A stretch of DNA of 64,000 nucleotides from Bacteroidales bacterium (GTDB lineage Bacteria; Bacteroidota; Bacteroidia; Bacteroidales; F082), in contig JAUXMV010000101.1 of assembly GCA_030683155.1 (NCBI GenBank), positions 1 to 64,000 of the forward strand, given 5' to 3'. The position numbers were made by a program, and so were the translations under genes. The notes under the pieces are model-generated. The model saw nothing but the letters and a program-made list of their open reading frames with translations, did not search any database and was not told the DNA's origin. Shown piece by piece: positions 32,380 through 44,487 of the stretch (position 1 is the first letter of the stretch; the number at the start of each line of letters is the position of its first letter).

Positions 32380-33393
32380 TTAGCTGCTTCCTACCGGATT
32401 TATCACCGACGTTTGCCTCATCATAAATCTATATGTAAGCCCAATCGTAAATTGCGTTTGTGATGCAATCTGCGTTTTGTTTACATACTGATAAAGCGGG
32501 AAATCAGTCTGAGCAAATAAAGTAAATCCTTCAGCAGCACTGTAACTCAATTGCGGAGAAACAAAAAGTTTTTTACTGCCTGTAGCCTCAGGGTCGTAGT
32601 TGGGAAACGACATCATCATAACATCCGGATTGATTTGCATGGAGCCTATAAATTCGGCTTTCAACTGTATGGCAACATTTAGTTTTTCTTGAAAATTTCT
32701 GCCAAGAAAAAGCCCTGCACTGGCATAATTTCCGAGTTTCTCTCCCAATGGATTCCAACCTTTAAAGATATATATCAGATTGGCAGATAGTTTCATTTTG
32801 CTGCCCGGAAGTCCTCCTGAATAAAACAAACTCAGCAAAACATCCTGTGCACCTGATGTAGCTTGCACTGCAGGCGGTTTTGAGCTGTATAAAATTTCGC
32901 CAGAAAATGGCTCCAGACGACCAATAGAATCATTATAAGTTCCCATTGGCAACTTTACTCCCATGCCAAAAGTGAGTTCCGTAAATTTATTCTGCGCACT
33001 TGCCTTTAAGATATTATAGCGTGGAAACAGAATTAAATCACCAATGCCCTTTGAATTGTAGGTATCACCTTCACGAATGCCGATTTGCGTTTTATCAACC
33101 CAATAGCCCGCTTCTATTGACATGGTAAGTCTGTCGGATAAACCATAGGCAAAGCGCGAATAAACATACTTACTACTGAAACGTTCAAGAAAATTGGTGT
33201 CAGGTTTATTCTCAGTAAGAAAATTGGTTGAGTTGATGTATTGAAAATTTGAATTGATTTCAAATTGCCTTTCCCGCAAAACCCCCTGAGAAGCATCGCC
33301 CGCAAGCGGACTTCCACCTCCTACTGCACAGCACTGCGCATAAGACGCTCCGGAAAAAAATGATAAAAAGAAAACAATGTATAAATGTTTCAT
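32380..33393 (-). CDS. outer-membrane beta-barrel protein with Cys-Cys N-terminus
   Basis: A 337-aa protein with a signal peptide ending at about residue 19 (GASYAQ). The mature part starts CCAVGGGSPLAG and continues as alternating hydrophobic/aromatic strands, such as SKYVYSRFAYGLSDRLTMSI and TQFTIGLTYRFM, typical of 12-16-strand outer-membrane barrels of the phenol-degradation-transporter type. The vicinal cysteines right after the signal are unusual and could bind metal or form a disulfide; they do not form a normal lipobox. The gene follows the T9SS thioredoxin-like gene by 36 nt in the same direction, so the pair is probably co-transcribed. Substrate unknown. Confidence 0.75.
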   Translation of the reverse strand: MKHLYIVFFLSFFSGASYAQCCAVGGGSPLAGDASQGVLRERQFEINSNFQYINSTNFLTENKPDTNFLERFSSKYVYSRFAYGLSDRLTMSIEAGYWVDKTQIGIREGDTYNSKGIGDLILFPRYNILKASAQNKFTELTFGMGVKLPMGTYNDSIGRLEPFSGEILYSSKPPAVQATSGAQDVLLSLFYSGGLPGSKMKLSANLIYIFKGWNPLGEKLGNYASAGLFLGRNFQEKLNVAIQLKAEFIGSMQINPDVMMMSFPNYDPEATGSKKLFVSPQLSYSAAEGFTLFAQTDFPLYQYVNKTQIASQTQFTIGLTYRFMMRQTSVINPVGSS

Positions 33394-33429: not shown

Positions 33430-34206
33430 CTATTTTACAATGTTAAATTTCAACTGCTCAACACCTTTCGAATGCTTCAACTGCAAGTGATAAAGTCCAT
33501 TTGCAAGGTTTTCGGTTGAGATTTCAAATTGATTCCGACCTTCGTTTGCAACACCTGAATAAAACACTTTGACCTCCTGTCCTACACCATTGAAGAGACT
33601 TATTTGAATTATATCAGGTTTTTGGAGTGAAAAATCAATATTTACAATATTTTGCGCTGGATTTGGGTAGACCTTAAATGAAGATGAGGTAGCCTTACTT
33701 TCATTGATTGCAGTTACAACTGAAATAGCATTATTAATCGCTTGTTGCAATGCTACATGATCAACGGCGTCGTTGGCATTGTAAAAAACCCTGCGCTCTG
33801 AACCTCCAATAACGACAACCTTGGGCATACCATTTGAGCCATAATCCATCATTTTAATGGCAGGGTTTGAAAACTTTAAAGTGTTTGACATACCATTACT
33901 GTTTGCCCAAAGTTCTATTGTGGCGCAAGGCGTATTTGCGTAATCATCCACCATCAACATTACAATGCGTCCGGGATGTGTGTTTTGATAGCTTTGAACA
34001 ACGTTATAGGTAGTTTTTAATGGCAATACACAAGAACCACAAGGCATTGTCCAGCCAATAACAACAACTTTTCCGGCATCAAGCTCATTATACAAGTCGA
34101 AATTCACGCCCGAACATGAAGTAACATTAAAGTTTGTTGCATTCTGTGCAATAGAAGAAAATCCAAAAAAAAGTGAGAATATTAAGGAGTATATGGTGTT
34201 TTTCAT
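33430..34206 (-). CDS. thioredoxin-like protein with T9SS type A sorting tail
   Basis: The 258-aa exported protein has a signal peptide (about 1-20, ending SSIAQ). Residues about 25-165 form a thioredoxin-like domain with the redox motif CGSC in WTMPCGSCVLPLKTTY. The C-terminal domain (about 180-258) starts with KVYPNPAQNIVNID and ends LYHLQLKHSKGVEQLKFNIV, the por-secretion-system sorting signal. The protein is therefore predicted to leave the cell through the type IX system and stay on the surface or in the medium. Its partner may be the Cys-Cys barrel encoded next (inference). Confidence 0.85.
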   Translation of the reverse strand: MKNTIYSLIFSLFFGFSSIAQNATNFNVTSCSGVNFDLYNELDAGKVVVIGWTMPCGSCVLPLKTTYNVVQSYQNTHPGRIVMLMVDDYANTPCATIELWANSNGMSNTLKFSNPAIKMMDYGSNGMPKVVVIGGSERRVFYNANDAVDHVALQQAINNAISVVTAINESKATSSSFKVYPNPAQNIVNIDFSLQKPDIIQISLFNGVGQEVKVFYSGVANEGRNQFEISTENLANGLYHLQLKHSKGVEQLKFNIVK

Positions 34207-35289: not shown

Positions 35290-36336
35290 TCACTTCACTT
35301 CTTTGGCAACAATAATGTAGGAAGGAAAGTGGTCGCTATAGCCTCCATGATGTTCGCCGCCAACATAGGTTCGCCACGGATAGCCTTTAAACCGACCGCT
35401 GCGCTGCGTCATTTCCACCTTATAATATACCCTTGCAGTCCTGAATTTATAGGTTGAATAGTCATCACCAACCAACCCCTGACTCACAATCAGTTGGTCG
35501 AAAAGACTCCATGTATCGCGCCATGCGTTTGAACCAATGCCTTTTTTGTACAATGAATACATCGGATTATACAAATCACCCGGCTTAAGATCCTTCAACG
35601 AACCTTTGGCCCTTAATCCTTCGGTAATACTTTTATTGGTTGGGTTGTCGTTGAGGTCACCCATCACAACAATTTTAGCGTCTGGATTGATATTGAGCAA
35701 AGAGTCAGTAATGTGGCGCGAAAGTTTTGCTGCAGCCACCCTGAGGTGCAAAGAGCGTTTTTCGCCACCGCGCCGAGAAGGCCAGTGACCCACGATAAAA
35801 TGCATTTCTTCGCCGTCAAACTTACCTGAAACGAGCAGCTGGTCACGGGTGTAGAAGTTGGGCATTCCATCGACATAAAGTCTGTATGATTTCGAGCCTG
35901 TTGGTGTAAAATATTTTGGTTGATAAATTAATCCCACATCAACCCCTCTCCGGTCAGGCGAGTCATAATGAATGATCTGGTAGTTTCTGTCTTTCAAGCG
36001 TGGCATAGCAACAAGATCCTCCATTACCTGACGGTTTTCTATTTCAGAAAGCCCCAACACTGCGGCACCGTCAGGGGTGAAATCAGTTCCAATTCCAACG
36101 ATGGCCTCAGACAGCCTGTCGAGCTTTTGCAAATACTTTTTTGTATTCCATCTGGTGGCACCTTGAGGCGTGTACTCTTCGTCGTTTATTGTTGGATCAT
36201 TAATTGTATCAAACAAGTTCTCAACATTATAAAAAGCGATACATCCAACTTTATAAAGCCTTTCCTGGGCCTTAAGACCATAAACTGAAAAAATCAGAGA
36301 GAAATAGAGTAAGCCAACTAAAAAATTTCTTTTCAT
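35290..36336 (-). CDS. secreted endonuclease/exonuclease/phosphatase-family protein
   Basis: The 348-aa protein has a signal peptide (about 1-23, ending GLKAQ) and an EEP fold related to DNase I. Motifs in order are FYNVENLFDT, LSEIENR with the metal-binding Glu, VGHWPSRRGG, GDLNDNPTN with Asp and Asn, and the C-terminal YSDHFPSYI with the catalytic His. It acts in the periplasm or outside. Substrate may be nucleic acid or a phosphodiester/phosphomonoester. It is divergent from a TonB receptor gene (217-nt gap), followed by an OB-fold-like lipoprotein, which suggests a shared function. Confidence 0.88.
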   Translation of the reverse strand: MKRNFLVGLLYFSLIFSVYGLKAQERLYKVGCIAFYNVENLFDTINDPTINDEEYTPQGATRWNTKKYLQKLDRLSEAIVGIGTDFTPDGAAVLGLSEIENRQVMEDLVAMPRLKDRNYQIIHYDSPDRRGVDVGLIYQPKYFTPTGSKSYRLYVDGMPNFYTRDQLLVSGKFDGEEMHFIVGHWPSRRGGEKRSLHLRVAAAKLSRHITDSLLNINPDAKIVVMGDLNDNPTNKSITEGLRAKGSLKDLKPGDLYNPMYSLYKKGIGSNAWRDTWSLFDQLIVSQGLVGDDYSTYKFRTARVYYKVEMTQRSGRFKGYPWRTYVGGEHHGGYSDHFPSYIIVAKEVK

Positions 36337-36553
36337 TCTTGCGGTTTTAAACTTTTATTGAAAAGCACTTACAAATACTGCTAAAAGATGTGTAATGAGC
36401 TCTATTACTATACTTTACAAAAATCTTCTGCAAAGACATTTTTCAAGCGCTGAATATTTAACGACAAAAGTAAGACAATTCCAACATCAAATTACCTTTA
36501 AAGTAGATGAAAGAATTAACTTTGTGGCGTTTAAGATATTTATCACAATCATT

Positions 36554-39064
36554 ATGAACAGAATTCTTTACCTGATCATCGGATTATTTCTGATGCAGCA
36601 CGTTATTGGGCAAACGGATACAAGCAATCTTGTGCCGCAAATTATTTTGCCTTCAGTAGTGCTGTCAGAGTCCGATTTCGAAGGCGGAAGCGCCTCAACT
36701 GACATCTCCGGCCTTTTACAATCATCGCGGGATATTTTTGTTTCCACAGCCGGCTTTAATTTTGGATCCCTGCGATACCGCATGCGTGGCTACGATTCAG
36801 AAAACACCATGGTTCTTTTCAACGGTGTCGCCATGAACGACCTTGAAACCGGCAGGGCCTCCTGGTCGAGCTGGGGAGGTTTAAACGATGCTGTCAGAAA
36901 CACCGAAATCAGCAATGGCATCACTACCTCCGACTGGGGTTTTGGGGGTGTTGGTGGCGTTACAAATATTCTTGCCCGTGCAGGAAGTTACCGCAAAGCC
37001 ACCAATATTAGTTATGCTGCTTCAAACAGAAGTTACAACAACCGTCTGATGTTCCTTTATGCAACGGGCATGCAGGAAAACGGATGGGCGTTTGCTCTTT
37101 CAGGCTCCCGGCGCTGGTCCCAGGAAGGCTATGTACCCGGAACATTTTATGATGCCTGGGCTTACTATTTATCTGCAGAAAAAAAGATCAACAATCAGCA
37201 CAGCCTTGGAATCATCGCTTTTGCGGCACCCACGCAACGTGGCTATTCTGGCATATCCGTTCAGGAAGCCTACGACCTTTCAGGTTCAAATTATTACAAT
37301 GCCAACTGGGGGTATCAAAATGGTGAAGTACGAAATGCTCGTGTAAGCAATTACCATCAACCAATGATTCAGCTTTCCCACTATTGGACTCCTGCCGAAA
37401 AAACAAAAATTCAGACCACAGTATATCATTGGTTTGGCAGAGGCGGCGCAACTGCCCTTGATTGGAACGAAGCCAACGATCCACGACCTGATTATTACAG
37501 AAACCTTCCAAGCTACTGGCTTCAAAGAGGTGATATGGATAATTATAATTATTACCTTGATCAATGGCAGAACAATGAGGAGTCCAGGCAGATGCAGTGG
37601 GATCATTTTTATTTTGCTAACAGTAAAAATCTTGCAACAGTAAACAATGCCAATGGTATTCAGGGCAATAAGGTTACCGGAAACAAGTCAAAATATATTG
37701 TCGAAGACAGAAGAATGGACAAAAATCAACTGGGTTTAAACATCAACGCCCAACATCAGCTGAATGCCAAAACAAGATTGACAGGTGGTGCCTTGCTTAC
37801 TAGTGCAAAAACACGTCATCACAAAAGGCTGGCTGATTTATTGGGAGGCGATTTTTGGTTAGATATTGATAAGTATTCTGATCAGGAACCATTTCAAATT
37901 ACAAATGCGTCCCAAAACGACCTCAGAAACCCAAACAGGATTGTGAAAGAAGGCGATATCTTCGGATATGATTATTACGCCAACACAAACAATGCACGCC
38001 TTTGGGGTCAGGCAGAAATGAAGATTTCGCGCTTTGAGTTATTTGCCTCTGCAGAAATAAGTTATACTGAATTCTGGCGCACAGGCAATATGCAAAACGG
38101 AAGATTTCCAGATAATTCTTACGGAGATTCTGAAAAAAACACCTTCCTCAATTACGGAATTAAAGCAGGTGCCACCTATGCAATTGACGGCCGCAATTAT
38201 ATTGTTGCCAATGCCGGATATCTCACCAGAGCGCCCTATTTCAGGGATTCTTATATTTCACCCCGAACACGCGATTTCGTTGTTGACGGTCTAAAAAGCG
38301 AAACCGTAATGGCAGGCGATATCAGCTATATTTTGCGTGCGCCAAACCTTAAAGCCAGAGTCACACTCTATCAGGCACAAATGCTCGACAACCTTTGGGT
38401 TAGAAGTTATTACCACGAAGATTTGCGAAATTTTGTAAATTATATTATGTCCGACCTCGATCAAATGAGCCAGGGAATTGAATTTGGTGCCGAAGCAAAT
38501 CTTTCGCCAACACTTTCTGTTCAAGCCATTTTAGGCCATGGACGCAATGTAATTTCCAACAGACCAAATGTTACTATTGCCGAAGATAACAACGCCACAC
38601 TTTTAGCTGAAAACCGTGTTGTTTATCTCAAAAACTATTATGTTGGAGGCTCACCTCAAACAATCGCATCTGCAGGCTTCAGATACAATTCACCAAAATT
38701 TTGGTTTGCCGGTGTTAATGGTAACTATTATGACAATGCTTATCTCGAAGCTAATCCGGATAATCACACAGCTGAAGCAATGCGTTTGTATGCCGAAGGA
38801 GATGTAAGAATTGAAAAGCTGCTGAAACAACGAAAAATCGATCCGGGGTTCACCCTCGACTTTTTTGGAGGAAAATCATGGCTTATCAAGGGAAAAACCA
38901 TTTTGCTCAACGTGAGTGTTAACAATATTCTCAACCGCAAAGATCTTGTGATCTGGGGTTTTGAGCAACTAAGGACAGACCTTAACGACCCAGGCAGGTT
39001 TCCTGAAAAATATTCCTATATGTATGGAACCACTTATTTCATCAATCTGGGCTTTAGACTTTAA
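36554..39064 (+). CDS. TonB-dependent outer-membrane receptor
   Basis: An 836-aa protein with a signal peptide ending at about residue 19 (HVIGQ). A plug domain follows (about 30-160) with LRYRMRGYDSENTMVLFNGV and a long barrel ending in YFINLGFRL with a terminal aromatic-rich strand. It lacks the carboxypeptidase-like N-terminal domain of SusC proteins. The start at MNRILYL is chosen because the frame upstream carries 53 residues with no signal character. The multidomain lipoprotein gene follows after 31 nt, so they form an operon, with the EEP enzyme divergent. Cargo is unknown; nucleotides or nucleic acid fragments are a reasonable guess. Confidence 0.88.
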   Translation: MNRILYLIIGLFLMQHVIGQTDTSNLVPQIILPSVVLSESDFEGGSASTDISGLLQSSRDIFVSTAGFNFGSLRYRMRGYDSENTMVLFNGVAMNDLETGRASWSSWGGLNDAVRNTEISNGITTSDWGFGGVGGVTNILARAGSYRKATNISYAASNRSYNNRLMFLYATGMQENGWAFALSGSRRWSQEGYVPGTFYDAWAYYLSAEKKINNQHSLGIIAFAAPTQRGYSGISVQEAYDLSGSNYYNANWGYQNGEVRNARVSNYHQPMIQLSHYWTPAEKTKIQTTVYHWFGRGGATALDWNEANDPRPDYYRNLPSYWLQRGDMDNYNYYLDQWQNNEESRQMQWDHFYFANSKNLATVNNANGIQGNKVTGNKSKYIVEDRRMDKNQLGLNINAQHQLNAKTRLTGGALLTSAKTRHHKRLADLLGGDFWLDIDKYSDQEPFQITNASQNDLRNPNRIVKEGDIFGYDYYANTNNARLWGQAEMKISRFELFASAEISYTEFWRTGNMQNGRFPDNSYGDSEKNTFLNYGIKAGATYAIDGRNYIVANAGYLTRAPYFRDSYISPRTRDFVVDGLKSETVMAGDISYILRAPNLKARVTLYQAQMLDNLWVRSYYHEDLRNFVNYIMSDLDQMSQGIEFGAEANLSPTLSVQAILGHGRNVISNRPNVTIAEDNNATLLAENRVVYLKNYYVGGSPQTIASAGFRYNSPKFWFAGVNGNYYDNAYLEANPDNHTAEAMRLYAEGDVRIEKLLKQRKIDPGFTLDFFGGKSWLIKGKTILLNVSVNNILNRKDLVIWGFEQLRTDLNDPGRFPEKYSYMYGTTYFINLGFRL

Positions 39065-39095
39065 CAAATTTGAACAAACGATATAATCTATTATA

Positions 39096-41714
39096 ATGAA
39101 GACAAAAATTAAAAATTTCTCTTTCGCCCTGCTATTGCTCATCGCAACGGGCATTATCGGTTCTTGCGTCAAACAAGATTTCGACCGTCCTCCAATCAAA
39201 GATATTCCAGTCGGACAAGTGTATACCATTGGAGAACTTATAACACTTTTCAACACCTCCGGAGCAACACAATTCAATACGGATGCTTCTGTTTATGGCG
39301 TTGTAACCATGGATGAAACCACAGGTAACATTTACCGCACCACTTATATTCAGGATGCAACCGGCGCCATCAATGTCAGGTTAAAAGAAGCAGGCGGCTT
39401 GCGTGTTGGCGATTCAGTAAGGGTTTATTTGAAGAATGTAATCCTTTCAGCCTACAACAATATGAGGCAACTTGACAATGTGCATAACGACAGCAATATT
39501 ATTATTCTGGCCAATCAAAAGTATCGCGAACCAGAAACAGTTACCATTACCCAGCTTCTTTCAGGTAATTATCAGGCTAAACTCGTTCGCCTTGAAAACG
39601 TTCAATTTGTTGCCGGAGACACAGCGCTGACATATTCTGCTACAGATGCAACCACCAATCGTACAATTGAAGATTGTGACGGGAAATCAATTATTGTCCG
39701 CACAAGTAACTTTGCCAATTTTGCAAAGAAAAACCTTCCAAATGGCAACGGAAGTCTGATAGCTGTAGCCGGACTTTTTAACACCACATGGCAGTTATAC
39801 GTGCGCACAGCAACCGAAGTTGTAATGGAAGGCCAACGTTGCGGCGGCGGCGGTGGAGGCGGAACAGATCCGGTTAATACCGTTAATCAGGATTTCAATT
39901 CTGTTTCAGATAACGTTGACATTGCTTTCAATGGCTGGACAAATATAGCAGAAGCCGGTACACGCAAGTGGCAGGGAAAAGTTTTTGGTGGCAATGGATA
40001 TGCACAGGCATCAGGATACAATTCCAACCTGAGCAGCATGATTACATGGCTCATCACACCTCCTGTAAAAATGGATCAGGCTAAGCTGCTCCGTTTTAAA
40101 ACTGCAAAAGCTTTCTGGGAACATGGTACCGATGTTCCAATGACTGTTTTGGTTTCATCCAATTTTGATGGTATAAATGTTGCTGCTGCATCATGGACAC
40201 CAATTGCAGCGCGCATTGCTACACAATCTGACGGCGATAATGCATGGATTGAATCCGGAGATATCGATCTCTCTGCCTTCATTCCTGAAGGGAAAATTTC
40301 AGTCGCCTTTAAATATGTAGGAAGTGGTACCAAATCTACTTCAATGCGTATTGATGACGTATACATCGGCACTGAAGGGGGTGGCGGTGGTGGCGGAGAT
40401 GCCGGAACCATTGACAACCCTTATACAGTTGAACAAGCAATTGAAAACCAAAATGCAACACCCTATGTGGCTGGATGGGTTAGTGGCTATATCGTTGGCG
40501 CAGTAAAATCAGGTGTTTCAACTGTTACTTCTGCCGCAGACGTGAGCTTTAGTCCTCCTTTCGATTTGGCAACCAATGTAATGATTGCATCAAACATGAA
40601 TGAAACTGATTACACCAAATGTGTGATCGTAAATCTTCCGGCCGGAACGCCATTGCGCACACAGGTGAACTTGATGGACAATCCGGGCAACCTCAAGAAG
40701 TTATTGAAAGTAACCGGCGTACTTCGCACCTACTTTGGATTAGCAGGTTTAAGAGACGCTCCTGGTCAGGCTGGTGATTTCGTCCTCGAAGGCGGCGGCG
40801 GTGGCGGAACTGGCTCCGGCACCATGGCAGATCCATATACAGTAGCATTGGCAATCGAAAAACAAAACGCAACACCCTATGTTGTCGGCTGGGTGAAAGG
40901 CTATATTGTGGGATCGGTTGTTGCCGGAACTTCAACAATTACAAGTCCAACCGATATTCATTGGACAGGTCCATTTACCTCGGCTACTAATGTTGTGATT
41001 GCAGATTCAAAAACCGAAACTGATTATACGAAGTGTGTAATTGTAAACTTACCTGCAGGATCGGCACTGCGAACAGCAGTCAATCTTCTGGACAATCCCG
41101 GAAATCATTTGAAATGGGTTAACGTTAAAGGAACCCTAAGAACATATTTTGGCATTGCAGGATTACGTGATGCTCCCGGAACAGCATCCGACTTCCAGCT
41201 TGAAACCAGTGGCGGGGGCGGAGGTGGAGGTACCATCTTCTCGGAAGTTTTTGCCACAAACCTTGGAACTTTTTCTGCCTTTAGCGTTGAAGGTGCTCAG
41301 GTATGGAACTGGGCAAATTTTGATGGCGGATGCGCTTTAATGTCAGGGTTTTTCAATACAGTCAGATACCCAAATGAAGATTGGCTCATCTCACCTGCAA
41401 TCAATCTTTCAACCCATACAGGATCAAAATTGAATATTCGGCAGGCGGCAAATTATGTAGATGGACAGTGGGATTTATTGCAAGTGATGATATCCTCAAA
41501 CTATGATGGAACAAGCAATCCAGGCACACAAGGCACATGGACTGAGCTTCAGATTCCAAATCGTCCTGCAGGAACAAACTGGACATTTGTTGATTCAGGT
41601 GACATCAATATTGGCGCGTATGACGGTCAGGGCGCAGTGTATATTGCATTCCGTTATCGCTCTACTGGCACTGTTGCTTCCTCATGGGAAATAAGCAAAG
41701 TTGAAGTAAAATAA
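39096..41714 (+). CDS. multidomain surface lipoprotein (DUF5689, choice-of-anchor J, two DUF6359-like units)
   Basis: An 872-aa lipoprotein with its lipobox at Cys24 (GIIGSC). Residues about 40-245 form a DUF5689-like, OB-fold-like domain (ASVYGVV, YIQDATGAINVRL, GDSVRVYLKNV). Residues about 260-427 and 713-872 are choice-of-anchor-J-like jelly-roll domains. Between them are two repeats of about 127 residues (438-565 and 577-702) of DUF6359 type, each with ATPYVxGWVxGYIVG and TDYTKCVIVNLPAG. Glycine tracts of 6-8 residues (249-256, 428-434, 566-571, 706-712) act as linkers. OB-like folds often bind nucleic acids, in line with the neighbouring EEP enzyme. Domain names are from memory of the families, not a search. 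Confidence 0.8.
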   Translation: MKTKIKNFSFALLLLIATGIIGSCVKQDFDRPPIKDIPVGQVYTIGELITLFNTSGATQFNTDASVYGVVTMDETTGNIYRTTYIQDATGAINVRLKEAGGLRVGDSVRVYLKNVILSAYNNMRQLDNVHNDSNIIILANQKYREPETVTITQLLSGNYQAKLVRLENVQFVAGDTALTYSATDATTNRTIEDCDGKSIIVRTSNFANFAKKNLPNGNGSLIAVAGLFNTTWQLYVRTATEVVMEGQRCGGGGGGGTDPVNTVNQDFNSVSDNVDIAFNGWTNIAEAGTRKWQGKVFGGNGYAQASGYNSNLSSMITWLITPPVKMDQAKLLRFKTAKAFWEHGTDVPMTVLVSSNFDGINVAAASWTPIAARIATQSDGDNAWIESGDIDLSAFIPEGKISVAFKYVGSGTKSTSMRIDDVYIGTEGGGGGGGDAGTIDNPYTVEQAIENQNATPYVAGWVSGYIVGAVKSGVSTVTSAADVSFSPPFDLATNVMIASNMNETDYTKCVIVNLPAGTPLRTQVNLMDNPGNLKKLLKVTGVLRTYFGLAGLRDAPGQAGDFVLEGGGGGGTGSGTMADPYTVALAIEKQNATPYVVGWVKGYIVGSVVAGTSTITSPTDIHWTGPFTSATNVVIADSKTETDYTKCVIVNLPAGSALRTAVNLLDNPGNHLKWVNVKGTLRTYFGIAGLRDAPGTASDFQLETSGGGGGGGTIFSEVFATNLGTFSAFSVEGAQVWNWANFDGGCALMSGFFNTVRYPNEDWLISPAINLSTHTGSKLNIRQAANYVDGQWDLLQVMISSNYDGTSNPGTQGTWTELQIPNRPAGTNWTFVDSGDINIGAYDGQGAVYIAFRYRSTGTVASSWEISKVEVK
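40407..41201 (+). repeat. internal coding duplication (two DUF6359-like units)
   Basis: The unit at 40407-40790 and the unit at 40824-41201 encode proteins with about 60-65% identity by eye, including identical strings such as NPYTV/DPYTV, TDYTKCVIVNLPAG and AGLRDAPG. They are separated by a Gly-rich linker coded by GGN codons. This is an older tandem duplication, since third positions have diverged. Confidence 0.8.
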
Positions 41715-41730: not shown

Positions 41731-41768
41731 AAAAAGGATGGCAGCTTATTTAGTTGCCATCCTTTTTT
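41731..41768 (+). terminator. intrinsic terminator after the lipoprotein gene
   Basis: AAAAAGGATGGCA (41731-41743) pairs perfectly with TGCCATCCTTTTT, followed by TTATTTT. It lies 17 nt past the stop and ends the TonB receptor/lipoprotein transcript. Confidence 0.85.
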
Positions 41769-41837
41769 ATTTTCAGGTCTATACATTTTTTGCACCTTTG
41801 TATCGTTATTTCCACAAAACAATACGGGAGAGTAATT

Positions 41838-42581
41838 ATGTCTGATACGCTTGTAATCATACCAACCTTTAATGAGAAGGAAAACATCGAAAACATCATA
41901 CGTTATGTTTTTGATCTGGAAAAGAAATTTGATATCCTCATCGTTGAGGACAATAGTCCTGATGGCACAGCACAAATTGTAAAAAAACTGATAAAAGAAT
42001 TTCCTGAACGACTTTTTATTGAGGAACGTAAAGGTAAACTAGGACTTGGTACCGCTTATATTCACGGATTCCGTTGGGGCCTGAAACAGGGTTACGATTA
42101 TATCATTGAAATGGATGCAGACTTTTCGCACAACCCTTCCGACCTTCCACGCCTGTATCATGCCTGTGCTGTTGAAGGTGCCGATGTTGCTGTTGGTTCA
42201 CGCTATATCACTGGCGTAAATGTAGTTAACTGGCCCATGGGAAGGGTTTTGATGTCCTATTATGCTTCAGCCTATGTGCGTTTTATTACCCGCATGAAAG
42301 TGCGTGATACTACCGCAGGATTTGTTTGCTATAAAAGGAATGTTTTAGAAACCATCAATCTTAATAAGGTAAAATTTGTGGGATATGCTTTTCAGATTGA
42401 AATGAAGTACACCTCCTGGCGCCTGGGATTTACCATCAAAGAAGTTCCTATAATTTTTACCGACCGCACTGAAGGCACCTCTAAAATGAATAAAGGCATT
42501 TTCAAAGAAGCAGTTTTTGGTGTCATTAGTCTTCGTTGGCGAGGTGTAACCGGCAGAATCCGTGCTGTTAAAAAGCAATAG
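41838..42581 (+). CDS. polyprenol monophosphomannose synthase-like glycosyltransferase (GT2)
   Basis: A 247-aa cytoplasmic GT2 enzyme of the dolichol-phosphate mannosyltransferase type, which transfers a sugar from a nucleotide sugar to a polyprenyl phosphate. Motifs are VIIPTFNEKENIENI at the start, the first Asp pair VEDNSPDGTA, the catalytic EMDADFSHNP, and the family segment GSRYITGVNVVNWPMGR. No C-terminal membrane helices are seen, so it is the single-domain type. The start at 41838 begins directly at the first strand; an upstream in-frame start would place 28 residues over the preceding terminator. It precedes the dihydroorotase-like gene by 21 nt. Confidence 0.92.
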   Translation: MSDTLVIIPTFNEKENIENIIRYVFDLEKKFDILIVEDNSPDGTAQIVKKLIKEFPERLFIEERKGKLGLGTAYIHGFRWGLKQGYDYIIEMDADFSHNPSDLPRLYHACAVEGADVAVGSRYITGVNVVNWPMGRVLMSYYASAYVRFITRMKVRDTTAGFVCYKRNVLETINLNKVKFVGYAFQIEMKYTSWRLGFTIKEVPIIFTDRTEGTSKMNKGIFKEAVFGVISLRWRGVTGRIRAVKKQ

Positions 42582-42602
42582 AAATTTAATACATGCTAAC
42601 TT

Positions 42603-43958
42603 ATGGGCGTAAGATATTTCATTCGCAATGCAAAAATCATCAACGAGGGAAAATCTTTTCATGCTGATGTGGCTATTTCTGACGGATTGATTGAAGCTAT
42701 TACCGTAAGTCAAGCTGAAATACCCGAAAAATTCAGCCGCTATGAACTGATAGATGCGCGTGATAAAATACTTATTCCCGGTATAATCGACGATCAGGTG
42801 CATTTTCGCGAGCCTGGACTTACCTACAAAGGCGATATTTATAGCGAAAGCAGGTCCGCTGTTGCGGGTGGTATTACAAGTTTTATGGAAATGCCCAACA
42901 CCATCCCAAACACACTCACTCAAGATTTATTGGAGGAAAAATACGCTATTGCAGCCGAAAAGTCGCTGGCCAACTATTCGTTTTATATGGGTGCCTCCAA
43001 CGATAACAGCAAAGAGGTTTTAAAGACTGATCCGAAAAACGTGTGTGGAATAAAAGTTTTTATGGGCTCAAGCACTGGCAATATGCTCGTTGACAATGAG
43101 CTCACACTTGAACGCATCTTTTCTGAAGCACCTTGTCTTGTTGCTGTTCACTGCGAGCATGAACCTACGATTCAAAAAAATGTCAATGAATTTCTTCGGC
43201 AATATGGCCTGGATGCTCCGGCAAATATTCATCCGCTGATTCGTAACGCTGAAGCCTGTTATCGTTCATCTGCCCAGGCAGTTGAACTGGCGGCGAAGTA
43301 TAATACCCGACTGCATGTATTGCATCTTTCTTCGGCAAAAGAGATGTCACTTTTCAGAAACGATATTCCGCTTTCAGAAAAGAAAATCACTGCTGAGGTA
43401 TGTTTGCACCATCTTTGGTTTACAGATAAAGATTATGAAAGCAGCGGAAATTTTATTAAGTGGAATCCGGCTGTGAAATCTGCAGAAGACAGGGATATGC
43501 TTTGGAATGCACTTTTAGATGGAAGGCTTGATGTAGTTGCAACAGACCATGCACCGCATAGTTTTGAGGAAAAATCTATGCCATATTTCAAGAGTCCTTC
43601 AGGCGGGCCAATGGTTCAGCATCTTTTGCCGGGAATGCTTGAATTTTACAAAAAGGGTAAAATTAGTCTGGAAATGATGGTCGGGAAAATGTGTCACAAC
43701 CCGGCAATAGCTTTTAATGTCGAAAAAAGAGGCTTTATTCGTGAAGGTTATTTTGCTGATCTCGTGCTCGTTGATTTAAATAAAGCTTTTACGGTTGACA
43801 AAGGAAATATCCTTTACAAATGTGGCTGGTCACCTATGGAAAACATTGCTTTTCCGGCAAGCGTGACACATACGTTTGTGAATGGAAATCTTGTGTATGA
43901 AAATGGCCGGTTGCATGAAAGAATCAAAGGGATGCGTCTCAAATTTGACAGAAATTAA
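42603..43958 (+). CDS. pyrC: dihydroorotase-type amidohydrolase
   Basis: The 451-aa cyclic amidohydrolase is of the class I dihydroorotase/allantoinase branch, probably closing carbamoyl-aspartate to dihydroorotate in pyrimidine synthesis. Motifs are GIIDDQVHFREPGLT (about 60-74), IKVFMGSSTGNML, VAVHCEHEPT, RLHVLHLSSAKEM and ATDHAPHSFEEK with the catalytic Asp. The usual metal-binding HxH reads QVH here, so the first His is Gln. I believe the same change is common in Bacteroidota homologues but cannot check. The gene lies in an apparent operon with the glycosyltransferase and a MORN-type lipoprotein. Confidence 0.85.
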   Translation: MGVRYFIRNAKIINEGKSFHADVAISDGLIEAITVSQAEIPEKFSRYELIDARDKILIPGIIDDQVHFREPGLTYKGDIYSESRSAVAGGITSFMEMPNTIPNTLTQDLLEEKYAIAAEKSLANYSFYMGASNDNSKEVLKTDPKNVCGIKVFMGSSTGNMLVDNELTLERIFSEAPCLVAVHCEHEPTIQKNVNEFLRQYGLDAPANIHPLIRNAEACYRSSAQAVELAAKYNTRLHVLHLSSAKEMSLFRNDIPLSEKKITAEVCLHHLWFTDKDYESSGNFIKWNPAVKSAEDRDMLWNALLDGRLDVVATDHAPHSFEEKSMPYFKSPSGGPMVQHLLPGMLEFYKKGKISLEMMVGKMCHNPAIAFNVEKRGFIREGYFADLVLVDLNKAFTVDKGNILYKCGWSPMENIAFPASVTHTFVNGNLVYENGRLHERIKGMRLKFDRN

Positions 43959-44019
43959 AATGCCGTTAAATTCAACAGAAAAAATACTTAAACCAATTAA
44001 GTATTTACGCTTTACCGTT

Positions 44020-44487
44020 ATGCTAAGATTGATAACATTAGTTGCTTTGAGCGTGTTTTTTTTGATTTCATGCAACAATTCAACAGAAAAAATTCCTGTT
44101 GTTGACTCTGAAATTATCGAGCTCTGGGACAATGGACAAGCCCGTGTGGTATGGGTTTATGGTCTTTCAAACGGGGAAAAAGTTGCCATCAGGGAGATTC
44201 AGTATTTTGCCAGCGGAGCGAAAAGCATGGAGGGTGCATTGCTGAATGAGAAGCGCCATGGCGAATGGAAATCATGGTATGAGGACGGAAGTCTTTGGAG
44301 TGAAGGGTCGTTTCGTGAAGGGCGTCGGCATGGAAAAGGAGTCGTTTATCATTCAAATGGTAATAAATTTATTGAAGGTACCTATTTGAATGGTCAACGT
44401 GTTGGAACATGGCTTTGGTATGATAAAGAAGGAAATATCATCAGTGAAGCTGAAGGACTTAGTCTGGCTCCCGATATAAATCAATAG
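44020..44487 (+). CDS. small lipoprotein with MORN-like repeats
   Basis: A 155-aa lipoprotein starting MLRLITLVALSVFFLISC, a clear lipobox at Cys18. After it come four or five antiparallel repeats of MORN-variant/YwqK type, with strings such as NEKRHGEWKSWYEDGSLWSE, EGRRHGKGVVYHSNGNKF and NGQRVGTWLWYDKEGNI. Upstream in-frame starts (43960 or earlier, overlapping the dihydroorotase end) exist but would bury the signal sequence. Such proteins are sometimes annotated as YwqK-like antitoxins; the lipid anchor argues for an envelope protein. Function unknown. Confidence 0.82.
   Translation: MLRLITLVALSVFFLISCNNSTEKIPVVDSEIIELWDNGQARVVWVYGLSNGEKVAIREIQYFASGAKSMEGALLNEKRHGEWKSWYEDGSLWSEGSFREGRRHGKGVVYHSNGNKFIEGTYLNGQRVGTWLWYDKEGNIISEAEGLSLAPDINQ

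Follow-up and report, generated by a model that had tools for sequence, protein, structure and literature searches.

A conserved module of TonB-dependent receptor, DUF5689 lipoprotein and DNase I-like enzyme in Bacteroidota: a candidate for DNA uptake without type IV pili

INTRODUCTION

Genes for natural transformation of Riemerella anatipestifer were sought in a transposon screen (PMC8459023), and a locus described in that study is compared here with a three-gene locus at positions 35290–41714 of a 64 000-nt stretch of DNA (hereafter the window) from Bacteroidales bacterium GCA_030683155.1, contig JAUXMV010000101.1. The latter locus encodes an EEP (DNase I-like) enzyme, a TonB-dependent receptor (TBDR) and a lipoprotein. 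In R. anatipestifer, RA0C_RS04920 (DUF5689 plus DUF5017) adjoins RA0C_RS04915, which codes for a carboxypeptidase-regulatory TonB-type receptor; markerless deletion of either gene gave no transformants, and homologues of pilus components were not detected. In the authors' proposal, RS04920 is the DNA-binding protein and RS04915 the carrier across the outer membrane. They left the enzyme that processes the incoming duplex DNA unassigned, reported that an HHH protein and a DUF1343 protein are also required, and stated that homologues of RS04915 occur only in Flavobacteriaceae (PMC8459023). Elsewhere, tonBA and tonBB mutants of Riemerella were found to have reduced transformation, the tonBB effect being ascribed to iron, and transformation fell, and did not rise, when phosphate was removed from the medium (PMC8383284).

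The literature on the individual families is sparse. The paper of the transposon screen is the sole one we found that names DUF5689. For M949_1556, which names a family related to the lipoprotein, a mutant is described as altered in antigenicity and pathogenicity in work cited in PMC12566107, and we found no paper linking this gene with DNA uptake. An initial annotation of the window had read the locus as one for nucleic-acid scavenging, parallel to SusCD loci, in which a secreted nuclease, a TonB receptor and an OB-like lipoprotein would gather DNA or RNA for phosphate or nucleosides.

RESULTS

Relationship to the Riemerella transformation locus

One genome of our set (G240) carries, in this order, genes for RecA, DinB, SdhB, SdhA, SdhC, ComEC, a 145-aa protein, a carboxyltransferase, an EEP enzyme, a TBDR and a DUF5689 lipoprotein (RecA, DinB and SdhB were read from the sequence). 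It was taken as Riemerella because this order corresponds exactly, gene for gene, to that of the published tags RS04870 (RecA), RS04895 (ComEC), RS04915 and RS04920; this correspondence suggests that the EEP gene is RA0C_RS04910. With 599 bits, the G240 lipoprotein lies above the cut-off (475) of the M949_1556 model, which takes its name from a Riemerella gene. The receptor of the window (36554–39064, + strand) aligns with that of G240 at 31% identity over 847 columns (E = 3e-138), the full barrel being covered; when the G240 receptor is compared with the window's genome, the window receptor ranks first (407 bits, versus 96 for the runner-up), and the two are taken as reciprocal best matches. 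Identity is 28% between the two lipoproteins (E = 3e-27; window gene at 39096–41714, + strand) and 40% between the two EEP enzymes (E = 5e-93; window gene at 35290–36336, − strand). On the basis of these three alignments, the best-match result and the gene order of G240, the window module is taken as orthologous to the Riemerella RS04910–RS04920 module.

The surroundings of the G240 module (L173:3405–19899) deserve a mention of their own. The EEP gene is on the same strand as those for the carboxyltransferase, the 145-aa protein and ComEC, possibly in one operon. Beyond the lipoprotein gene there is a CRISPR locus of the Cas9 type, so that putative DNA uptake and defence by CRISPR are neighbours.

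Conservation and co-occurrence of the three genes

The receptor was searched for in 198 genomes of the phylum, a clear full-length clade being delimited by E values below 1e-88. This clade is present in 28 genomes, the window's included. A scan of named species genomes yielded 80 receptor loci, spread over Bacteroidales, Flavobacteriales, Saprospiraceae, Chitinophagaceae, Crocinitomix, Marinifilum, Rikenellaceae and others, and at least 588 relatives were counted in all. A codirectional DUF5689 gene is found no more than three genes downstream of the receptor in 104 of 107 loci; the pairing of receptor and lipoprotein at the outer membrane, as seen in the initial annotation, is supported. Of the loci, 99 extend far enough upstream to be assessed for the EEP gene, which is divergent from the receptor gene and adjacent to it in 76 of them. 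Clustering of the neighbours within five genes singled out only the DUF5689 and EEP families as conserved (the next cluster is present in 10 loci); no recurring nucleotidase, phosphatase or nucleoside transporter was found among these neighbours. Lack of conservation among the neighbours had been named beforehand as grounds for abandoning the nucleic-acid interpretation, and the conservation observed is extensive. Since the three-gene arrangement recurs across the phylum, it lies far beyond chance, and since the receptor loci are phylum-wide, the restriction of RS04915 homologues to Flavobacteriaceae is too narrow.

Co-occurrence, which had been suggested as a check, was analysed in 49 genomes of the same class, a DUF5689 match being considered strong above 140 bits. 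The 28 genomes with the receptor clade are precisely those with a strong DUF5689 match. For PF19580 (EEP), a strong match was obtained in 28 of 28 genomes with the receptor versus 3 of 21 without it (G045 being one of these three). The Fisher P values are 3e-14 for receptor and DUF5689 and 1e-10 for receptor and PF19580 (9e-10 and 1e-6, respectively, at the genus level; deeper relatedness is ignored in these figures). Genomes in which the genes are scattered, G017 for example, keep all three, and 10 genomes that have no EEP gene next to the receptor, drawn at random, all have one elsewhere.

Two further candidate features were discarded. Replacement of an absent EEP gene by another enzyme in the same position does not hold, most exceptions being flanked by unrelated housekeeping genes and only one (L078, see below) having a different nuclease, in the operon. 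Linkage to comEC is not a general trait either, as it was seen in just 3 loci, all from one genus. A separate oddity concerns a contig labelled as a Chryseobacterium gleum metagenome-assembled genome (MAG; L077): its receptor is 50% identical to that of the window, and thus much closer to it than Weeksellaceae-type receptors are, and the label or the bin is probably wrong.

The EEP enzyme

The 348-aa product of the − strand gene begins with a Sec-type signal peptide and matches PF19580 (Exo_endo_phos_3) with 441 bits (E = 2.5e-132, cut-off 27). Residues N37, E98, H184, D227, N229, D280, D335 and H336 are invariant in 27 homologues; the protein has the full DNase I-type catalytic set, and DNase activity is predicted. 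Against NF033681, the model of ExeM/NucH nucleases, it scores 34.2 bits, below the curated cut-off of 300. The initial annotation had this enzyme secreted, and here it needs correction. No C-terminal domain of the type IX secretion system (T9SS) was detected in the protein, and its 76 orthologues end a median of 15 residues past the catalytic SDH. There is no lipobox in the window protein, and a lipobox-like motif occurs in only 3 of the 76 orthologues (73 are without). In Bacteroidota, a Sec signal accompanied by neither a T9SS domain nor a lipobox points to the periplasm. Because it has a Sec-type signal and neither a T9SS domain nor a lipid anchor, the EEP enzyme is probably exported to the periplasm rather than secreted; a secreted or T9SS-exported enzyme was ruled out, the orthologues having no T9SS tail. 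A periplasmic nuclease fits the processing of incoming DNA better than it fits extracellular digestion.

In a tree of the family, the receptor-linked EEPs, that of the window among them, are separate from six free-standing paralogues, which include two from the window's genome and both G045 copies (support for the grouping, 0.93). The two paralogues of the window's genome (L191:10299–11324 and L192:9969–11075, contigs C63 and C59) belong to this separate clade and have unrelated neighbours. Other members of the superfamily were encountered in different contexts. In another family (f17), many genomes have PF19580 but lack DUF5689. In one genus (g6), 1137-aa proteins with a T9SS tail carry a C-terminal EEP domain (L194:910–4323 and L195:3623–7036); these are likely to be nucleases that do leave the cell, unlike the periplasmic EEP. 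In one genome without DUF5689 (G134, L179:6707–11701), an EEP of the receptor-linked type lies near a diverged receptor, and it is possible that the lipoprotein was lost or replaced there.

The receptor and the lipoprotein

The Plug domain (PF07715) is the sole Pfam match of the receptor (E = 1.4e-5, above the cut-off). An AlphaFold model built on 26 sequences places a plug inside a large barrel (pTM 0.79), and all matches listed for this model in the PDB are TonB-dependent transporters (best E = 2e-27), PqqU, FhuA, OprC and FecA among them. The predicted fold is that of a TonB-dependent transporter, plug and large beta barrel. Such a receptor would be energised by TonB; the reduced transformation of the tonB mutants of Riemerella (PMC8383284) is explained in part by iron.

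The lipoprotein (872 aa) comprises, from the N-terminus, DUF5689, a choice-of-anchor J domain, two DUF6359 units and a second choice-of-anchor J domain (DUF5017/choice-of-anchor J in the Pfam and NCBIfam matches). Its OB-like DUF5689 domain (39216–39821, + strand; PF18942, 161 bits, E = 6e-46) and its two DUF6359 units (40413–41195, + strand; E = 2e-58 in Pfam, 68% identity between units) are as the initial annotation had described them. No DNA repeats of 60 bases or more were found within the gene. Cys24 is invariant among the homologues compared. The two choice-of-anchor J regions correspond to jelly-roll domains, the fold matches being to gingipain adhesin and MAM folds; the predicted model has a pLDDT of 81, with moderate confidence across the DUF6359 stretch. 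Concerning the OB-like character of DUF5689, 56 homologous domains were compared with PF01336 (OB-fold nucleic acid binding); 7 of them match it (best E = 3e-7), and the window copy is not one of these. DUF5689 itself was barely probed by the Foldseek and VIA structure searches, because the jelly-roll domains filled the results. A DUF5689 profile search against the PDB returned nothing significant, hhalign of DUF5689 against the OB-containing tail described below or DUF6359 was uninformative, and DUF6359 has no profile match to DUF5689. Against NF052645, the M949_1556 family, the lipoprotein scores 235.5 bits, below the curated cut-off of 475, which makes it a homologue of this family rather than a member of it by that cut-off.

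Neither a SusC family model for the receptor nor a SusD family model for the lipoprotein gave a match in Pfam or NCBIfam. Membership of the SusCD group was therefore ruled out, and the proposed parallel does not hold in the strict sense.

In the lipoprotein N-termini of 100 loci (window, 39165 onward), a motif of roughly C-[VK]-K-x-[DE]-F-D-x-P-P follows the lipidated Cys; it is similar to an export signal that directs lipoproteins to the cell surface.

Additional nucleases and competence genes

Two loci bring further nucleases into the company of the module. In a Rikenellaceae MAG (L140:3767–13332), a one-strand operon codes for a 1189-aa DUF5689 protein, a NucA-type endonuclease carrying a BACON domain, an EEP enzyme, the receptor and a DUF5689 lipoprotein; the C-terminal region of the 1189-aa protein matches a model for T9SS surface endonucleases (E = 1.6e-19), with a score short of that model's cut-off. 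This is possibly a dedicated locus for DNA degradation and uptake. In Bacteroidales UBA5219 (L078:10070–16026), the receptor gene is followed on one strand by two DUF5689 genes and a gene for a NucA-type nuclease with an OB-fold tail, with no EEP gene adjacent to the receptor. The Shewanella nuclease ExeM unites two putative OB folds and an EEP domain in one chain, and it requires the OB region to be active (PMC6085458). Taken together, L140, L078 and ExeM indicate that OB-like domains and nucleases meet repeatedly.

The window's genome has one ComEC protein (PF03772), together with HHH (PF12836) and NamZ/DUF1343 (PF07075) proteins. The PF00263 secretin is absent from it and from 39 of the 43 genomes searched.

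Transcription signals and neighbouring genes

The three open reading frames, their coordinates and their strands were all confirmed, and with them the divergence of a DNase I-like enzyme gene from a receptor and lipoprotein operon. The reading frame of the TBDR opens at 36395, and its start is most likely at 36554, the N-terminus MNRILYLIIGLFLMQHVIGQ being a predicted signal peptide. This start leaves a divergent promoter region of 217 bp (36337–36553) between the EEP and TBDR genes. TAnnTTTG-type −7 elements are present there on both strands as pattern matches: TAACTTTG on the + strand, ~30 bp upstream of the TBDR start, and one such element on the − strand. A conserved intergenic motif was sought by comparison with the nearest relatives, which gave no clear alignment. 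The TBDR and lipoprotein genes, separated by 31 bp, form a two-gene operon, which a strong intrinsic terminator closes (41731–41767, + strand; 16-bp stem followed by a T run).

Downstream, genes for a glycosyltransferase, a dihydroorotase and a MORN-like lipoprotein (window 41754–44487) accompany the locus in ~10 Bacteroidales loci, which looks like ordinary synteny. On the other side, a − strand gene (33430–34206) codes for a protein with Por_Secre_tail and a WTMPCGSC thioredoxin-like motif; it adjoins a gene for a putative outer-membrane protein (32380–33393) without a Pfam match.

DISCUSSION

Gene content and order, orthology, conservation, the predicted fold of the receptor and the catalytic residues of the enzyme are results of the present analysis. 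The explanation that we favour, with a probability of about 0.65, is that the locus is an outer-membrane DNA-uptake module of the natural-transformation type, independent of type IV pili and orthologous to that of Riemerella. The proposed sequence of events is as follows: (i) the surface lipoprotein would capture extracellular DNA by means of its OB-like domains, (ii) it would pass this DNA to the receptor, (iii) the receptor would move it across the outer membrane, powered by TonB (here the fold is predicted and the requirement is genetic, in Riemerella), and (iv) the periplasmic EEP enzyme would nick or degrade the incoming duplex, so that one strand reaches ComEC. Part of the imported DNA may serve as food; transformation and nutrition are compatible, and a nutritional benefit alongside uptake is possible.

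The following points weigh against this explanation. DNA binding, passage through the receptor, cutting by the EEP enzyme and hand-over to ComEC are, all four, steps that we infer. Flavobacterium johnsoniae, stated to carry the homologues (PMC8459023), could not be transformed in the conditions used (PMC7965970). The same catalytic residues occur in lipid and inositol phosphatases of the EEP fold, and no mutant of the EEP gene (RS04910) is reported in the literature. The linkage of the module to comEC is limited to part of one genus. Finally, ComEC, HHH and NamZ domains are present in all or nearly all genomes searched, with or without the module; being near-universal, they support feasibility only and do not discriminate.

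The first alternative is nucleic-acid scavenging, in which the lipoprotein and the receptor would bring in fragments of DNA or RNA as a source of phosphate, nucleosides or carbon, with periplasmic degradation by the EEP enzyme and transformation as a by-product. The same orthology and nuclease evidence applies to it; L140, whose operon has up to three genes of the nuclease type, resembles a degradation locus; Bacteroidota are prevalent DNA degraders in marine sediment (PMC8289736); and the module reaches far beyond the species known as competent, the negative result with F. johnsoniae counting in the same direction. However, the neighbours include no recurrent family of nucleotidases, phosphatases or nucleoside transporters, the EEP enzyme has no cell-surface export signal, loss of transformation is the sole transport phenotype recorded, and phosphate removal lowered transformation in Riemerella (PMC8383284), though the module genes themselves were not addressed there. 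We consider this alternative rather unlikely.

A second alternative, which we regard as distinctly improbable, is that the receptor imports another cargo, such as a metal chelate, a lipid or a sugar phosphate, and that the EEP enzyme is a phosphatase or phospholipase, the Riemerella phenotype being an indirect consequence of changes in the envelope or in iron. The catalytic residues cannot tell DNases from phosphatases, the nearest solved folds of the receptor are siderophore, PQQ and copper transporters, and both the iron-related tonBB effect (PMC8383284) and the altered antigenicity and pathogenicity of the M949_1556 mutant, as cited in PMC12566107, would be accommodated. It is at odds, though, with the repeated association with unrelated nuclease families, with the OB-like domain of the lipoprotein and with the complete, not merely reduced, loss of transformation in the deletion mutants. 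As for a surface system that would bind or remodel extracellular DNA without transport (adhesion, biofilm turnover), the resemblance of the jelly rolls to gingipain adhesin domains and the OB-like domains are in its favour, but almost all loci pair the lipoprotein with a TonB-type receptor, and a periplasmic location is predicted for the nuclease; we regard this last option as very improbable.

Returning to DNA uptake as the favoured function, the initial annotation was right about the link to nucleic acids, which is now backed by orthology to transformation genes, by the OB matches and by the extra nucleases at L140 and L078. The SusCD parallel in its strict sense, the secretion of the enzyme and nutrition as the main role find no support. 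Natural transformation, the sole genetic result for the orthologues of the receptor and the lipoprotein, had not been considered in it.

The Riemerella transformation system was already known; what is new here is the conserved nuclease partner, the phylum-wide range and the larger lipoprotein. The receptor–lipoprotein pair extends past Flavobacteriaceae to Bacteroidales, Chitinophagaceae, Saprospiraceae and others. The EEP enzyme becomes a candidate for the duplex-processing enzyme left unassigned in the Riemerella study, and a likely function can be offered for DUF5689 and for a receptor family without annotation. A bolder generalization, for which we would put the odds slightly below even, is that of a phylum-wide, pilus-free importer in which the TBDR threads DNA, a multi-OB lipoprotein feeds it and a dedicated periplasmic DNase I-like EEP prepares the strand for ComEC. 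If this is true, many orders of Bacteroidota would have natural competence as a latent trait, and DNA would be a new cargo class for TonB receptors. The question bears on how Gram-negative bacteria without type IV pili get DNA through the outer membrane and is of relevance to gene movement among gut and environmental Bacteroidota.

Comparison with known systems

The window locus resembles that of Riemerella in having a receptor gene with, directly downstream, a gene for a DUF5689 and choice-of-anchor J lipoprotein, a divergent EEP gene and no type IV pilus secretin. They differ in several respects: the transformation phenotype is established in R. anatipestifer only, the window locus being known from its sequence; the window lipoprotein is of 872 aa, with two DUF6359 units and a second jelly roll, versus 467 aa in Riemerella; the window receptor does not have the N-terminal CarboxypepD_reg domain of its Riemerella counterpart; and comEC is elsewhere in the window's genome whereas it is near the module in Riemerella. 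The EEP enzyme was not discussed as a component of the Riemerella system (PMC8459023).

With SusCD loci, the common point is the presence together of a surface lipoprotein, a TonB-dependent receptor and a degrading enzyme, but the lipoprotein of the window is unrelated to SusD and the enzyme is nuclease-like and probably periplasmic. As in ExeM/NucH, OB-like domains and an EEP nuclease are proposed to act together; unlike in ExeM, they are in separate proteins, which are probably on opposite sides of the outer membrane. With type IV pilus/ComEA/secretin uptake in Proteobacteria, the window module would share the delivery of DNA across the outer membrane to ComEC; there is no secretin in the window's genome, and a receptor barrel would take the place of the pilus.

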